Source of the DNA: Desulfobacteraceae bacterium
Lineage (GTDB): Bacteria; Desulfobacterota; Desulfobacteria; Desulfobacterales; Desulfosalsimonadaceae
Length of the DNA stretch: 64,000 bases
NCBI GenBank assembly: GCA_003599885.1
Contig: QZKW01000075.1
Coordinates: forward strand, 1 to 64,000
Direction: 5' to 3'
In this document: positions 9,023 to 15,559 of the stretch, one piece after another
How positions within the stretch are numbered: position 1 is the first letter of the stretch
How the letters are laid out: each line of letters starts with the position of its first letter
Program-made: the position numbers and the translations under genes
The notes under the pieces: model-generated
What the model saw: only the letters and a program-made list of their open reading frames with translations
Told to the model about the DNA's origin: nothing
Database searches by the model: none

Positions 9023-9706
9023 TTATCCCTTAATCATCTTTTCAGCGTCTGATTTTCGAATGTAGCAGGGGGTCATGGCGCTTGCATCATCTGTGTCACC
9101 GCTTTTGAAACGGTGCATCGCTATGGCCGCGACCACCGACGCCCGGATCTGGTGGTGGGTCGAATCGGCAAAAAAAGCCTGGCCGCCCATGATGTCCATA
9201 ATTCGATCCCTATAGGCCACCGCGCCGTCACCCACGAAAATGCACGGTTCTTTAATATCCGAAACAGCCTTTTCAGGAGTTGTGACCTGGGGCGGCGTAT
9301 GAACGATTAAGCTGGAACTTCCCCCCCGGTAGCAGGCGGTATAAACTTCATGCCTTCTGGCATCCATCAACGGACAAATCAGTTGATGCGCATATGAAAA
9401 CGGGAATGCCAGGGCTTCCAATGAACTGACTCCCACCACCGGTTTATCGGCGCCAACAGCCAATCCTTTAACAGCACTCAGGCCGATTCTGAGCCCGGTA
9501 AAACTTCCAGGACCCGTTGTCAGGGCAAACCCATCCATATCCGTTATGGTAAACCGGCTGACAGCCAGCACATCATCGATCATTTGCATTAAAAACCTGG
9601 AATGGGTGTCCCGGTGATTGGCTGTAAATTCCGCCATTACGGAGTCATCTTCAAGCACCGCCACGCTGCATGTGCGGGACGCTGTATCCACCGCCAAGAT
9701 TCTCAT
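9023..9706 (-). CDS. tsaB: tRNA t6A biosynthesis protein TsaB
   Basis: 227 residues of the ASKHA fold, MRILAVDTASRTCSVAVLE at the start and TTGPGSFTGLRIGLSAVKGLA at about 67-87, the TsaB hallmark. TsaB binds TsaD and TsaE to make N6-threonylcarbamoyladenosine at position 37 of ANN-decoding tRNAs. Its Met codon overlaps the lon stop by 4 bases (ATGA), so translation is likely coupled to lon. Confidence 0.92.
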   Translation of the reverse strand: MRILAVDTASRTCSVAVLEDDSVMAEFTANHRDTHSRFLMQMIDDVLAVSRFTITDMDGFALTTGPGSFTGLRIGLSAVKGLAVGADKPVVGVSSLEALAFPFSYAHQLICPLMDARRHEVYTACYRGGSSSLIVHTPPQVTTPEKAVSDIKEPCIFVGDGAVAYRDRIMDIMGGQAFFADSTHHQIRASVVAAIAMHRFKSGDTDDASAMTPCYIRKSDAEKMIKG

Positions 9707-12159
9707 GGTTTGCCGGAACCGTCAGACGCGTTATTTTTTTTATTCTTTTTGCTTTTTGATGGTTTGACCGGTTCGGGTGTGATCAGAATCTCACCGATGG
9801 CAATGGCGATGACTTCATCGATGGTGGAAACCGGGCAGAATTTGAGTTTCCGTTTTACATTTTTAGGAAGTTCCGCCAGCTCGTTCCGGTTTTTTTCCGG
9901 TATGATGACCGTTTTGATCCCGGCCCGAAGCGCACCCAGAGATTTTTCACGTAGCCCGCCGATGGGGAGCACCCTCCCCCGCAAGGTGATTTCTCCTGTC
10001 ATGGCCACTTCTGTGTTGACCGGTTGGTTGGTCAGCGCTGAAATCAAGGCGGTTGCCATGGCAATACCGGCAGACGGACCGTCTTTGGGAATGGCCCCGG
10101 CCGGAACATGAATGTGGATGTCCCTGGTTTCAAAAAAATCTTTTTTTATGCCGAACAATTCCCGATGGGCACGTGCATAGGTTACCGCAGCCCGTGCGGA
10201 TTCCTGCATGATGTCACCAATTTGACCGGTGATGATCAGGTCTCCTTTGCCGTCAAGCAAGGTGGCTTCGATATACAACACCTCCCCTCCCACGGATGTC
10301 CAGGCAAGCCCGGTGGAGAGACCCACCTGGCTTTCTTCCTGATCCATTTCAGGCAGGAATTTAGGCGTTCCGAGAAACTGATGCAGGTTGTTCTTTGAAA
10401 TCAGAAAAGGGCCTTTTTCCTTTTCCGCGATCTTTCTTGCCAGTTTCCGGCAAATGGCCCCGAGTTCCCTTTCCAGATTCCGCAATCCCGACTCGCAGGT
10501 GTATTCTTCAATGATCTGCTGCATAGCCCCCTGGCTGATGGAGACATCTTTTTTCTTCAGTCCGTTTTCCTTGATTTGTCGGGGCAGTAAAAATGTTTCA
10601 GCGATAGCGGTTTTTTCTTCAAGGGTATAGCCTGACAAATGCAGCACTTCCATTCGGTCAAGCAGGGCCGAAGGAATCGTGTCAATGACATTGGCTGTCA
10701 GTATAAACATGACATTGGAAAGATCATAAGGCAAATTCAGATAATGATCGCTGAAATTTGCGTTCTGTTCAGGGTCCAGCGCCTCCAGAAGTGCGGATGA
10801 AGGGTCTCCCCGAAAATCAGATCCGATTTTATCAATTTCATCCATCATAAATACCGGGTTATTGCTGCCGCATTGTTTGAGGCCCTGGATAATACGCCCA
10901 GGCATCGCGCCGATATATGTTCTGCGGTGCCCGCGGATTTCCGCTTCATCACGGATGCCGCCTAGAGACACGCGAAAAAACTTCCGGTTCATTGCCTTGG
11001 CAATGGCCTGTCCCAGAGAGGTTTTCCCGACGCCGGGAGGCCCCGCAAAACAAAGGATCTGGCCTTTTTTATTGGGGTTTAATACCCGCACACTCAGGTA
11101 TTCAAGTATCCGGTCCTTGACTTTTTCCAGACCGTAATGGTGGCTGTCCAGTACGGTTTTTGCAGCCTTGATATCTATTTTATCCTTGGTGGATTTATTC
11201 CATGGCAGTTCAACGATCCAATCCAGATAGGTCCGGATGACAGAGGCTTCCGAAGAATCCGGATGCATCTGCTCCAGCCGCCGGAGTTGCTTGTCCGCTT
11301 CCTTGGAAATTTCAGGCGGCAGTTTGGCGCGCTTGAGGAGACTTTTATACTCTCCCACCTCTTCTATTTTATCATCAAATTCCCCGAGTTCTTTGTTGAT
11401 CGCCCGGACCTGCTCCCGCAAAAAATAGTCCCGCTGGCTTTTGGATATTTCATCCCGGACATTGGATTGAATTTTCGCCTGCATTACGGACAGCTCAACT
11501 TCACGGGTCAGGTAATCGTTGACTTTATGCAGACGTTCTACCGGGTCCGACAGTTCAAGCAAGCCCTGCGCTTCATCGATTTTCAGTTTTAAATTGGAAG
11601 ACACCAGATCCGCAAGTTTACCGGGATGTTCAATTTCTTCCAACAGAACACCGATTTCGCTGGAATATTCTCCACGAATTGTAAGAATTTTTTCACAATT
11701 TTCCCGAATGTTACGCATCAAAGCCTGATGTTCGAGTTCAAGTTTTTCAAACGGCTTGTCCTTGACCACTTCCACTTTGACGCTGTAATAATTTTTGTGG
11801 CTTGTGAACCGTTTGACCCGCCCTTTTTCAAGCCCCTGAACCAGCACTTTAAAATGCCCGTCCGGAAGTTTTAATATCCGTAAAATCCGGCAAATGGTGC
11901 CCACACGAAAAATATCATCCGGCTTGGGGTCTTCAATGGATGGATCCTTTTGGGTTGACAGGAACAGCAGCCGGTCGCCGCCCATGGCTTTATCCACCGC
12001 TTTGACCGACCGTTCACGACCGATAAACAAGGGAAGAACCATATCGGTAAATATTACAACATCCCTTACCGGCAATAGCGGCATGACTTCCGGAATGTCA
12101 ATTTTTCCATCCGTATCTTCTAAAAGGCTGACAAGATCGTCTTTATCCGTTTCTCCCAT
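9703..12159 (-). CDS. lon: ATP-dependent protease Lon (LonA)
   Basis: 818 residues. The LAN substrate-binding domain starts with PLLPVRDVVIFTDMVLPLF. A long coiled middle region, an AAA+ module with Walker A GPPGVGKTSLG and sensor segments, and a C-terminal protease domain follow. The catalytic Ser is in PKDGPSAGIAMA, with a Lys about 43 residues later in LREKSLGALRAG. It degrades misfolded and regulatory proteins in the cytoplasm. A 30-residue Lys/Pro/Ser-rich tail is unconserved. First gene of lon-tsaB. Confidence 0.96.
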   Translation of the reverse strand: MGETDKDDLVSLLEDTDGKIDIPEVMPLLPVRDVVIFTDMVLPLFIGRERSVKAVDKAMGGDRLLFLSTQKDPSIEDPKPDDIFRVGTICRILRILKLPDGHFKVLVQGLEKGRVKRFTSHKNYYSVKVEVVKDKPFEKLELEHQALMRNIRENCEKILTIRGEYSSEIGVLLEEIEHPGKLADLVSSNLKLKIDEAQGLLELSDPVERLHKVNDYLTREVELSVMQAKIQSNVRDEISKSQRDYFLREQVRAINKELGEFDDKIEEVGEYKSLLKRAKLPPEISKEADKQLRRLEQMHPDSSEASVIRTYLDWIVELPWNKSTKDKIDIKAAKTVLDSHHYGLEKVKDRILEYLSVRVLNPNKKGQILCFAGPPGVGKTSLGQAIAKAMNRKFFRVSLGGIRDEAEIRGHRRTYIGAMPGRIIQGLKQCGSNNPVFMMDEIDKIGSDFRGDPSSALLEALDPEQNANFSDHYLNLPYDLSNVMFILTANVIDTIPSALLDRMEVLHLSGYTLEEKTAIAETFLLPRQIKENGLKKKDVSISQGAMQQIIEEYTCESGLRNLERELGAICRKLARKIAEKEKGPFLISKNNLHQFLGTPKFLPEMDQEESQVGLSTGLAWTSVGGEVLYIEATLLDGKGDLIITGQIGDIMQESARAAVTYARAHRELFGIKKDFFETRDIHIHVPAGAIPKDGPSAGIAMATALISALTNQPVNTEVAMTGEITLRGRVLPIGGLREKSLGALRAGIKTVIIPEKNRNELAELPKNVKRKLKFCPVSTIDEVIAIAIGEILITPEPVKPSKSKKNKKNNASDGSGKP

Positions 12160-12444
12160 AACCCACCTGTTTTATAACTAAAATGTTAAGATATAGTGAA
12201 CATAACGCAAAACCGCAGAATTTCAATATATCTGTAAAAACCATACCATTTTTTAAAAAATAAACCAAATCTCTATTATCTTTATCGTTTAATATCAATT
12301 AATTTTTCATTATCCGACTTTGGGATTGATTTTAGCGCAACTGTTCCCTTATGATGCCTAATTGTCCGGATTACCGGTTCTTACAAAGACTTTTAGCGGC
12401 TTTTTACCGATCATTCCCGTAAACTCGATCACAAAGGCATCAAT
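12160..12444. other. Divergent intergenic region, lon / prepilin peptidase
   Basis: 285 bp, AT-rich, without a plausible gene. It must hold the promoters for lon (minus) and the prepilin peptidase (plus). I see no convincing heat-shock consensus or riboswitch. Confidence 0.4.
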
Positions 12445-13221
12445 ATGTCTAATTTACTTGTTTTGTTTATTATATTTTTTATGGGCGCCTGCATCGGCAG
12501 TTTTTTGAATGTTTGTATCTGGCGGTTGCCAAGATCCCAATCCATTGTCAGCCCGGGCTCCATGTGTCCGAAATGCGACACCCCCATCCGGTTTTATGAC
12601 AACATCCCGATCATCAGCTATGCCTTCCTGCTTGGAAAATGCCGGAAATGCGCGGCCCCCATATCCATCCGTTACCCGCTGGTGGAGTTGCTGACCGGAC
12701 TCCTGGCTGTCGCAACAGCCCATCGATACGGCATCACCCTTGATTTTCTCATATATTTCATTTTTATCAGCGCCCTGGTGACCGTTACATTTATCGACCT
12801 CGACCTTCAGATTATCCCGGATATCATTTCCCTCCCCGGCATCCCTCTGGGGCTGGCAGCCTCGCTCGTTTTGACGACAGTCACGTTTAAGGACGCACTT
12901 ATCGGGGTGCTCCTTGGCGGCGGCAGTCTCTTTTTGGTCGCCTGGGGATATCACCGCATCACCGGCAAAGAAGGCATGGGCGGCGGCGACATCAAACTGC
13001 TTGGCATGATCGGCGCCTTTATCGGATGGCAGGGGGTATGTTTCACCATATTTATCGCCTCCGCCACGGGTTCGGTGATTGGTTCCGTTCTCATGCTGTT
13101 TGCCCGGAAAGACCTGAAATTCGCTGTCGCATTTGGTCCGTTTCTGGCTCTGGGCGCTGTCGCCTATTTATTTGTGGGCCCGGAGCTCATCGACTGGTAT
13201 TATAACGCTGCCTTTCGATAG
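12445..13221 (+). CDS. pilD: Type IV prepilin peptidase / N-methyltransferase (A24A)
   Basis: 258 residues, multi-pass membrane protein. The N-terminal cytoplasmic loop has two CxxC pairs (CPKCDTPIRFYDNIPIISY and GKCRKCAAPIS), typical of the bifunctional form that also methylates the new N-terminus. The aspartyl protease motifs are in TFIDLDLQIIPD and GGGDIKLLGMIGA (GxGDxK-type). It processes prepilin-like proteins of type IV pili or type II secretion. No pilin gene is in the window, so pilD and gspO are both possible names. Confidence 0.92.
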   Translation: MSNLLVLFIIFFMGACIGSFLNVCIWRLPRSQSIVSPGSMCPKCDTPIRFYDNIPIISYAFLLGKCRKCAAPISIRYPLVELLTGLLAVATAHRYGITLDFLIYFIFISALVTVTFIDLDLQIIPDIISLPGIPLGLAASLVLTTVTFKDALIGVLLGGGSLFLVAWGYHRITGKEGMGGGDIKLLGMIGAFIGWQGVCFTIFIASATGSVIGSVLMLFARKDLKFAVAFGPFLALGAVAYLFVGPELIDWYYNAAFR

Positions 13222-13228
13222 AAATCCT

Positions 13229-14521
13229 ATGCTCACACTTTCCTCTGTTCCGGCCTTAATCCGGGTGGGGCTGGTGTTTATCGCCATTCTCATCGTCATT
13301 CGAAAAAATGGCTCTCTAGGCGTTTCATTTATTACTGGCGCACTTTTGCTGAGCCTGTTTTTCGGTCTTGGCCCGTTGTCAACCCTCACGTCTGCCTGCG
13401 GGGCCATTCTGCATCCCAAAACATGGACCCTTGCCATCATCATCTCTCTGATACTGATTCTCAGCACCAGCATGGAAATCAGCGGGCGGATGCAAAAAAT
13501 GCTGCTTCGATTTCAGGGCCTGGTTGCAAGCCCCCGCCTGAACCTGATCATCTTTCCGGCCCTGATCGGTCTGTTGCCGATGCCTGGGGGAACTTTGTTT
13601 TCTGCGCCCATGGTGAAGGAGATTAGCGGCAAATATCATATCAGTCCCGACCGATTGAGCTTTATCAATTTCTGGTTCAGGCATATATGGGAATACTGGT
13701 GGCCCCTGTATCCTGGTGTACTGTTGCTGACTGCCCTGGCGAATATCCATACGGCTGCATTCATCGCCTGGATGCTGCCGATGACCGTTTTTGCCCTGGT
13801 CTTTGGTTGTTTCACATTAAACCATGCCGGAATCCATTCCGCAGACAACACCCTGCTCAATCAACCTAAAAAATATTATCCTTTTATAATAGAACTGACA
13901 CCTATTCTGATTGTTGTTTTTTTTGGAGTGGGAGCCGGCAGTTTAATCGATATCTGGCTGCCGGGCCTTCCTGTAGGCAAGGAAACCGGATTGATCCTTT
14001 CCTTGATGTGCGCCATCCTCTGGGTCTGGCGGGACACTTCCATGTCAGCCGGGCAGATCAAACGCATTTTGGCCAATCGTCAATTGGTCAAGATGATGTT
14101 TCTGATTGTTTCCATTTTTATTTTCAAAGGAATTCTTGAAGACAGCCAGGCTGTTGGCGCGGTCGCAAAAGAATTACTGGTGTTCAATATCCCGATTTTT
14201 CTGATTGCTTTGATGCTCCCCCTTCTGGTCGGAATCATTACCGGGATAACGGTTGCTGTTGTCGGGACGGCCTTCCCCATCATTATTCCGCTCATTCATT
14301 CAACCGGTCAGAGTCACCTGATGATACCGTACATGATGATCTCTTTAACCTGTGGGTTCATCGGGGTATTGCTGTCTCCGCTTCACCTGTGCTTTATTTT
14401 ATCAAATGAGTTTTTTCATGCGGATATGAAAAAAATGTACCAGCATCTGTTTTTCCCGTGTTTGGGGATGGTCGGCGCTGGCGTGTGCTATTTTTATCTG
14501 CTGACATACTGGTTTGTATAA
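13229..14521 (+). CDS. DUF401 family membrane permease-like protein
   Basis: 430 residues from the ATG at 13229. The open frame runs back into the prepilin peptidase, but this start is the first outside it. About ten or more hydrophobic helices. The segment FPALIGLLPMPGGTLFSAPM at about residue 105 is characteristic of DUF401, a family related to ion- or anion-transporter folds with unknown substrate. IPLIHSTGQSHLMIPYMM near the end resembles the second half of the repeat. Follows pilD by 7 bp. The pair may simply share a transcript. Confidence 0.8.
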   Translation: MLTLSSVPALIRVGLVFIAILIVIRKNGSLGVSFITGALLLSLFFGLGPLSTLTSACGAILHPKTWTLAIIISLILILSTSMEISGRMQKMLLRFQGLVASPRLNLIIFPALIGLLPMPGGTLFSAPMVKEISGKYHISPDRLSFINFWFRHIWEYWWPLYPGVLLLTALANIHTAAFIAWMLPMTVFALVFGCFTLNHAGIHSADNTLLNQPKKYYPFIIELTPILIVVFFGVGAGSLIDIWLPGLPVGKETGLILSLMCAILWVWRDTSMSAGQIKRILANRQLVKMMFLIVSIFIFKGILEDSQAVGAVAKELLVFNIPIFLIALMLPLLVGIITGITVAVVGTAFPIIIPLIHSTGQSHLMIPYMMISLTCGFIGVLLSPLHLCFILSNEFFHADMKKMYQHLFFPCLGMVGAGVCYFYLLTYWFV

Positions 14522-14559
14522 AAAATCAAAAAGGCAACATCCGAAATGGATGTTGCCTT
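14521..14559 (-). terminator. Rho-independent terminator of the HesB selenoprotein gene
   Basis: AAGGCAACATCC at 14531-14542 pairs perfectly with GGATGTTGCCTT at 14548-14559 around a 5-nt loop. On the minus strand the stem is followed by TTTGATTTTT. It lies 28 bp after the minus-strand gene's stop. Confidence 0.85.
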
Positions 14560-14587
14560 AAAAAAGCATGATTTCAGGTAAAGGCGA

Positions 14588-14914
14588 TTATCCGCAGGTT
14601 CCTGTTCCGGTTGAAGATCCGCAACTGCCGCAGCCCCCGCCTTCCATTTTCAAGTTGGATGTGATTTGAAATCCGACCCCTTTAAAATCCACTTTCACGG
14701 GCTGCGCCTGTTTAAGCAGATCTTTATTGGCAATAAATTTAAATCCGCTGAATTCGAAAACCTCGTCCAAATCATTTGGTTCATCCAGAACCAATGCTAA
14801 AGATGGGCCGCCTCACCCGCTCTGGTTAAGGAAAAGCCGGATGGGCTTGACCTCTTTCTTGTCTTTAAAAAACTCCGCAATCTGCTGTTGCGCCATTTCC
14901 GTGACATCTAACAT
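14588..14914 (-). CDS. HesB/IscA-like selenoprotein (UGA = selenocysteine at codon 34)
   Basis: 108 residues from ATG at 14914, which follows GGAGG. Codon 34 (14815-14813) is TGA. On both sides the same frame encodes one HesB/IscA-like domain: KPIRLFLNQSG, then TGA, then GGPSLALVLDEPND. The A-type iron-sulfur carrier family has a cysteine at exactly this place (GGCGGPS-type). A stable hairpin 18 nt after the UGA fits a bacterial SECIS. HesB-like selenoproteins are known from Desulfobacterota and clostridia. The C-terminus has a Gly/Cys-rich tail (GGGCGSCGSS, then TGTCG). It probably binds Fe-S clusters or metals. Translation from the ATG at 14794 alone would lose the Sec half and the family start. 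SelA/B/C/D are not in the window. Confidence 0.92.
14776..14794 (-). promoter_or_regulatory. Bacterial SECIS hairpin within the HesB selenoprotein mRNA
   Basis: In the mRNA, UUGGUUC pairs with GAACCAA (7 bp) around the 5-nt loop UGGAU. It starts 18 nt after the UGA, so the loop is about 25 nt away. Bacterial SECIS elements have the loop roughly 16-37 nt from UGA and a G in the first two loop bases; both hold here. Confidence 0.82.
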
Positions 14915-14980
14915 GTGGTTGCCTCCAAAATATAAAAATTAAAATAATGACTCATCTAAACCATTAAAATTTGAAAAAAA

Positions 14981-15559
14981 TTAATCATCACGCGATAGCT
15001 TGTCAACACAATTCTTTTTCGTTGATGTCGCGTTTTCTGAAATGGATTCAAGACAGGACTGATATAATAGTAAATCGGGCAAAGAAAAAAGAACAAACCA
15101 TACCGTTAGGCCCTGCCCCTGATCTTTCAGAAACGCCGCTGTTGTGTCCACTGCGATTTCACAGGCTTCTTTCATGGGATATCCATACACCCCGCAACTG
15201 ATGGCCGGAAAGGCGATGGACTCAAGGCTGTATTGTTTTGCAAGCACCAGACTGTTGCGGTAGCACGCGGCCAGCAATTCAGCATCCCTTGGGCTCCCGC
15301 TGTATACCGGCCCCACCGTGTGAATCACATGCAGAGCTGGCAGGTTATAGCCTTTGGTGATTTTGGCTTCCCCGATCCGGCATCCGCCCAGAGTCCGGCA
15401 TTCTTCCAGTAAACCGGGGCCGGCTGCCCGATGAATGGCCCCGTCCACGCCTCCGCCCCCCAGCAGAGATGAATTGGCGGCATTGACAATCGCATCCACT
15501 TCTATCTTTGTGATATCTGCCTGGATGACTTTCATTGACGTCACAACCGAACGGTCCAT
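14981..15559 (-). CDS. Macro-domain protein (O-acetyl-ADP-ribose deacetylase-like)
   Basis: 192 residues. [30 protein letters not shown] is the macro-domain ADP-ribose-binding core, with the catalytic Asn/Asp area. The [14 protein letters not shown] loop binds the distal ribose and phosphates. Relatives remove acetyl-ADP-ribose or mono-ADP-ribose from proteins. The last 25 residues are not conserved and run to a stop near the selenoprotein promoter. Start at 15559 has a GGGGGAG ribosome site, and an internal Met at 15535 is possible. Confidence 0.9.

Follow-up and report, generated by a model that had tools for sequence, protein, structure and literature searches.

Within a 64,000-nucleotide stretch of a Desulfobacteraceae genome (contig QZKW01000075.1; hereafter the window), we identified a hesB/iscA-like gene that very probably encodes a selenoprotein. 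Its product is predicted to be an IscA/HesB-fold Fe-S protein in which UGA codon 34 is decoded as selenocysteine (Sec), with a hairpin starting 18 nt 3' of the codon directing tRNA-Sec and SelB to insert the residue. Sec at this residue had been put forward in the original prediction. The proposal is supported by the match to the NCBIfam family NF038090, the alternation of UGA and Cys codons among homologues, the covarying hairpin and the presence of the Sec machinery, all of which, like the reading frame and the IscA fold, were established computationally. This reading would correct a probably truncated annotation. The coordinates of the gene and its surrounding features are collected in Table 1.

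Table 1. Features of the hesB locus in the window
Feature	Position	Strand	Basis or remark
hesB/iscA-like selenoprotein gene (predicted)	14588..14914	-	108 codons + TAA; NF038090 118.2 bits; ATG at 14914, TAA at 14590-14588
UGA codon 34, probably read as selenocysteine; E. coli IscA has Cys 35 here	14813..14815	-	Alignment and codon survey
Predicted bacterial SECIS hairpin UUGGUUC-UGGAU-GAACCAA	14776..14794	-	Core = inner 5 pairs (14792-14788 with 14782-14778); loop 14787-14783
Shine-Dalgarno-like GGAGG, 7 nt before ATG	14922..14926	-	Sequence
C-terminal stretch with cysteines 95, 98 and 107	14594..14632	-	Invariant together with position 34 in 62 aligned rows
10-bp inverted repeat flanked by A/T runs; likely bidirectional terminator behind hesB	14533..14557	-	Read by eye
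Macro-domain (O-acetyl-ADP-ribose deacetylase family) gene, upstream of hesB, same strand	14981..15559	-	Neighbourhood survey

The sole in-frame interruption of the hesB frame is the TGA at codon 34, as the original prediction had described; its coordinates were correct, and the strand, which it had left unstated, is the minus strand. A plus-strand reading of the same interval was rejected, as frame 1 there contains stops and lacks HesB sequence. Other frames of at least 90 amino acids with a single TGA numbered 52 in the window. The mechanical list of open reading frames offers a 68-residue frame from a TTG at 14794, the same start that had been singled out as the truncated annotation. This frame is what would be expected if UGA 34 were a true stop, leaving a pseudogene or a shortened gene with a separate 68-residue product. 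Against this, the HesB-type sequence noted earlier on both sides of the UGA forms one IscA-family domain (PF01521, NF038090) that spans the codon. Macro-domain, ndk and lepA genes are found near hesB in many relatives' loci, as in the window, and the one tRNA found in the window by Rfam at gathering thresholds is a tRNA-Phe.

Codon 34 was surveyed in 91 homologous copies, using only alignments that cover residue 34 (those of L060 and of the HesB of L163 do not) and excluding L009, which is the window again. TGA was present in 68 copies, corresponding to 57 distinct sequences, and Cys in the remaining 23 (TGC in 16 and TGT in 7). Distinct sequences were counted because several of the named loci repeat genomes of the relatives' profile search. 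The earlier statement that the family keeps a cysteine here therefore holds for every non-TGA copy, and close homologues with a stop or a different residue, which had been named as counter-evidence, did not appear: TGA and Cys were the only states. The profile search among relatives gave a similar picture, with an in-frame TGA in 89 of 111 hesB matches, although in the rows of G040 and G021:C6 (30-33% identity) it may lie elsewhere than at codon 34. Counted by genome, 86 of 98 (own included) had a hesB match with in-frame TGA, 4 had only TGA-free matches, and 8 had no match. In genome G085, two HesB copies stand in tandem (L200:1199-1516 and 1599-1919), of which one has a Cys codon and the other UGA.

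The 7-bp hairpin with a UGGAU loop that the original prediction placed 18 nt downstream of the UGA is present as described, but only five of its seven pairs are conserved in relatives. All five core pairs formed in 54 of the 57 distinct UGA sequences (window included), each core pair individually in 55 to 57, and the two outer pairs in 5 and 36. The apical loop was UGGAU in 50 of these sequences and UGGAC in 7, with a G in the apical loop. At pair 23-33, numbered from the base after the UGA, 26 sequences had U-A, 30 had C-G and 1 had G-C, and none was mismatched; the codons across it co-vary (GTT with GAA in 26/26, GCT with GAG in 29/30, and GGT with GAC in 1/1). The full five-pair stem was formed in just 1 of the 23 Cys copies, that of L051. 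There, the Cys-codon HesB (L051:2974-3294) retains a SECIS-like stem and a UGGAC loop, likely as the fossil of a SECIS after a change from Sec to Cys. Folding of the window hairpin as a single sequence was not significant against shuffles (z -0.22) and was rejected as SECIS evidence; since the single fold is no better than shuffles, it is the covariation across relatives, and not the lone hairpin, that constitutes the evidence. In a synonymous-codon shuffle, the window gave a P value of 0.017 and the UGA copies a median of 0.053, with 24 of 57 at ≤0.05 as against 0 of 23 Cys copies; this test is conservative, as the codon pool was drawn largely from the same sequences. A stop codon would not be kept in this way: 57 distinct sequences share a UGA at this codon together with the covarying hairpin, and the 23 others have Cys there. 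We regard termination at codon 34 as extremely improbable.

The Sec machinery is encoded in the window's genome (4.5 Mb, 90 contigs, 98.8% complete). It comprises a tRNA-Sec (74.7 bits, anticodon UCA, G73), SelA (608.8 bits), SelB (369 bits, contig C10) and SelD (364.8 bits), whose frame contains one TGA. Absence of selA, selB or tRNA-Sec had been named as a point that would speak against Sec, and all three were found.

The protein matched NF038090 (IscA_HesB_Se) over positions 1-101 of 101 with 118.2 bits (cut-off, 85) and Pfam PF01521 with 31.1 bits (cut-off, 26.3). Its AlphaFold2 model has a mean pLDDT of 81, with residues 92-106, at the end that carries the partner cysteines, below 50, and superimposes on E. 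coli IscA (1s98) with a Z score of 12.4 and an rmsd of 2.5 over 90 aligned residues. Residue 34 aligns with Cys35 of IscA. Across 62 aligned rows chosen from a larger homologue set, the cysteines C95, C98 and C107 were invariant, as was position 34 (U or C), and C95 and C98 are spaced as CxxC. Collectively, the IscA fold, the invariant positions and the alignment to Cys35 suggest that Sec34 most likely takes the role of one of the ligands of a metal or cluster. Sec34 would then stand in place of Cys35 as one ligand of an Fe-S cluster or iron, together with C95 and C98 and perhaps C107.

The window's genome also encodes a second tRNA with a UCA anticodon (contig C28, L063:9519-9610), which has 8/8 acceptor pairs, U73, the cysteine discriminator, and a bulged T stem (the bulge being read by eye). 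A Cys-codon paralogue of the window HesB (L063:9171-9500) ends 18 nt before this selC* tRNA, and a second, divergent SelB (SelB2; L063:9648-11555, 280 bits) follows it, with a SelB-type winged helix (PF09107) at its C-terminal end. Eleven further SelB2 proteins share 34-70% identity with this SelB2, as against 25.6-28.9% for SelB1 rows. Arg181 of E. coli SelB, which we take to sit in the Sec pocket, aligned with Arg in 39/39 SelB1 proteins (39 of 41 distinct ones, L072 and L074 not being included and 5 repeats removed) and with Arg in only 1 of 12 SelB2 proteins, the others having Q (6), E (2), D (1), H (1) or K (1). GTPase motifs are altered in some SelB2 proteins. Those at L130:982-2979 and L131:2220-4220 have DVPAN for DVPGH and so lack the presumably catalytic His, which makes their GTPase activity appear doubtful.

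The second tRNA and second SelB bring in Cys as a possible second reading of UGA 34, which would be made by selC* through SelB2, either always or when selenium is short. In line with this, selC*-type tRNAs have been described as cysteine-accepting (PMC7609411, section 5), and at the Arg181 position all SelB1 proteins examined keep Arg but only one SelB2 protein does. However, SelB2 was found in only 32 of 291 class genomes at E 1e-90 (a draw that includes many of the first 98 genomes), yet TGA hesB rows occur in 86 of 98 relatives, so that most carriers can only use tRNA-Sec. Furthermore, the hairpin core is alike whether or not a genome carries the second SelB. Decoding of UGA 34 as Cys is thus improbable in our judgement, and selenocysteine is the reading that we carry forward.

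Several further observations concern these unusual tRNAs and SelB proteins. U73 was found in 13 of the 14 selC* loci listed, with L173, which has no encoded CCA, unscored; L170 has 7/8 acceptor pairs, and the selC* tRNA of L236 has no encoded CCA in the ARAGORN call. Matches to the tRNA-Sec model at L140-L145 (45-57 bits) were dropped, as ARAGORN called them Ile, Ser, Arg or Leu tRNAs. One of them, a tRNA with a long variable arm and a UAU anticodon (L140:2073-2167, G071 contig 161; tRNA-Sec 56.5 bits, Rfam cut-off 47; ARAGORN Ile), recalls the allo-tRNAs described in PMC7609411. Two SelB2-like matches stand in tandem in G147 (contig 40, 940029-944219). No cysS match was found beside the second SelB on contig C28. 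Elsewhere in the same genome (contig 58, minus strand, L224:1492-3861), a second CysRS-like domain, at 329.6 bits below the cut-off of 340, lies in a 789-aa open reading frame whose N-terminal part resembles cysteine synthase by eye, a fusion that might charge the unusual second tRNA. Large rhodanese-like proteins flank the second-SelB cluster (L063:8022-9140, 11744-13615 and 13808-14983; the first by PF00581, the other two by eye).

On the selC* contig of the window's genome, two genes lie 5.6 to 9.3 kb upstream of the tRNA. One encodes an FlpD/MvhD delta subunit (PF02662, 186 bits) whose residue 67 is Cys; the other is HdrA-like, has Cys at residue 81 and matches the NCBIfam HdrA2 and HdrA models with scores below their cut-offs. 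Both families also have TGA forms: a second FlpD copy in this genome has TGA at residue 67 (L215), and two relatives have TGA at HdrA residue 81 (L212, L213). Clustered Cys forms of HdrA, FlpD/MvhD and HesB were observed at L063 (256-3914 plus 9171-9500) and at L164, L197, L204, L235-L239, L241 and L242, some of them with selC*/selB*.

Proximity was compared by Fisher tests that treat related genomes as independent (G000, G001 and G008 are of one genus and G020 and G031 of another), with the absence of an internal stop taken as the Cys form; the HesB codon itself was read in 11 of 12 SelB2 genomes. The best 91 FlpD rows (at least 231 bits) comprised 75 with TGA and 16 without a stop, and among these 5/16 stop-free but 0/75 TGA rows lay ≤10 kb from selC* (P = 9e-5). 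For HesB, the counts at this distance were 4/22 stop-free versus 0/89 TGA (P = 0.0012). With the Cys-HesB of the window's genome as the query, 43 stop-free and 40 TGA rows were recovered from the 291 class genomes at E 1e-30. Of these, 9/43 versus 0/40 lay ≤20 kb from SelB2 (P = 0.0025) and 6/43 versus 0/40 lay ≤5 kb from it (P = 0.026). The nine include the HesB of G008 (L163:9994-10206), which precedes selC* and looks like a remnant, its N-terminal part being absent in all three frames; it is still counted in the selC*- and SelB2-proximity tests. Stop-free HesB was present in 12/32 SelB2 genomes versus 30/259 others (P = 0.0005), in 9 of the 12 at ≤20 kb from SelB2. The remaining 20/32 SelB2 genomes had no Cys-HesB at E 1e-30, and most Cys-HesB rows had no SelB2 nearby.

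Cys FlpD was present in 13 of 26 Cys-HesB loci (4.5 to 20 kb stretches examined) and in none of the other 13. By set, it was found in L063, L163 and L164 of the first four (the fourth being L126), in 3/14 (L197, L199 and L204), and in 7/8 (all but L240), this last set including four loci that were picked for a nearby SelB2; these four hold selC* and SelB2, and the other four neither. The FlpD proteins of L235, L237 and L238 share 40-53% identity with the Cys FlpD of the window's genome and belong to a group that is often TGA-free anyway. Beside UGA hesB copies (the window, L010-L062 and L175-L194, with flanks of 0.2 to 3 kb a side), no match to HdrA, FlpD or SelB2 was found at E 1e-10. With no HdrA or FlpD near the UGA copies and 13/26 Cys-HesB loci without FlpD, the functional link drawn below rests on half of the Cys copies. 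In a HesB tree built from few columns, 11 Cys copies (6 from the modules and 5 others) formed one weakly supported clade (SH-aLRT, 83), so that the spare HesB is probably a paralogue of long standing rather than the product of a recent Sec-to-Cys change. By their grouping with UGA copies, L196 and the L200 Cys copy appear to be local changes.

The grouping suggests that Cys HdrA, FlpD/MvhD and HesB beside selC*/SelB2 form a selenium-free module, which would tie HesB to Hdr/Mvh complexes. Because Cys HesB paralogues are often encoded with the Cys forms of both partners, the window HesB may serve electron-transfer complexes of HdrA and FlpD(MvhD), two families for which Sec forms likewise occur here, although we stop a little short of calling this probable. 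A joint reading, offered tentatively, is that some Desulfobacterota hold a spare Cys module in which HdrA, FlpD/MvhD and HesB are joined by a UGA-reading tRNA charged with cysteine and by a SelB particular to that tRNA. Cells supplied with selenium would use the Sec forms, the window HesB included; without it, the module would supply Cys forms, and its tRNA and SelB would read the remaining Sec UGA codons, including UGA 34, as Cys. On this view, HesB would be dedicated to Hdr/Mvh complexes, as a partner in either maturation or electron transfer. The association of Cys HesB paralogues with Cys FlpD and HdrA, at times by selC*/selB*, singles out Hdr/Mvh as a partner that can be tested and selenium starvation as a condition in which to do so, and it provides possible substrates for the tRNA that recodes UGA as cysteine.

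The selC*/selB* pair has been published for Desulfobacterales and Syntrophobacterales (PMC7609411, section 5), and the pair itself is therefore not new. As reviewed there, the selC* tRNA-Cys and selB* of Mukai et al. 2017 resemble those of the window's genome in U73, the 8-bp acceptor stem, the bulged A of the T stem, the UCA anticodon, the second selB downstream and the occurrence in Desulfobacterales. The published Desulfobacterales selC* has A1:U72, whereas the tRNA described here has G1:C72. A further difference is that the whole of contig C28 yielded no cysS match. Section 5 of that review gives no purpose for the cysteine-recoding tRNA and does not name HesB, HdrA or FlpD, which stand beside the pair here, as neighbours. 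We found no literature link of selC*/selB* to these proteins, which may stand in Mukai 2017 or Vargas-Rodriguez 2018.

In the archaeon Methanococcus maripaludis, mutagenesis and labelling with 75Se showed a HesB-like protein to be a selenoprotein, and in the absence of selenium the Sec forms of HdrA and Vhu are swapped for Cys forms; a Cys form of HesB is not mentioned in the available text (PMC11097638). The grouping of Cys HdrA, FlpD and HesB described here parallels this Sec/Cys isoenzyme switch, and together they make Hdr/Mvh the best candidate partner of HesB. The wider value of the present results is functional, as the M. maripaludis HesB-like selenoprotein is described in PMC11097638 as having no clear role.

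Compared with IscA/SufA structures (PDB 1s98, 1x0g and 2d2a), the window HesB has the same fold (Z scores, 12.4, 11.8 and 11.6) and the same first cysteine position at 24, 18 and 25% identity, with a probable Sec in place of Cys35. The C-terminal cysteines of IscA/SufA are spaced CxC, whereas those of HesB are spaced CxxC. Membership of TIGR01911 (HesB_rel_seleno), by name also HesB-like with Sec, was rejected (31.5 bits against a cut-off of 66.35), placing the window HesB outside that subfamily. Table 3 of Zhang et al. 2006 lists HesB-like selenoproteins from Syntrophobacter, Syntrophus, two Desulfovibrio, Geobacter sulfurreducens and Desulfuromonas (PMC1794560). As described there, these proteins have the IscA/HesB domain of the window HesB, with Sec in the first cysteine position and a bacterial SECIS shortly after it, as predicted for the window gene. 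By this description there is no difference of kind between them, and the window HesB is a new member of a known selenoprotein family.
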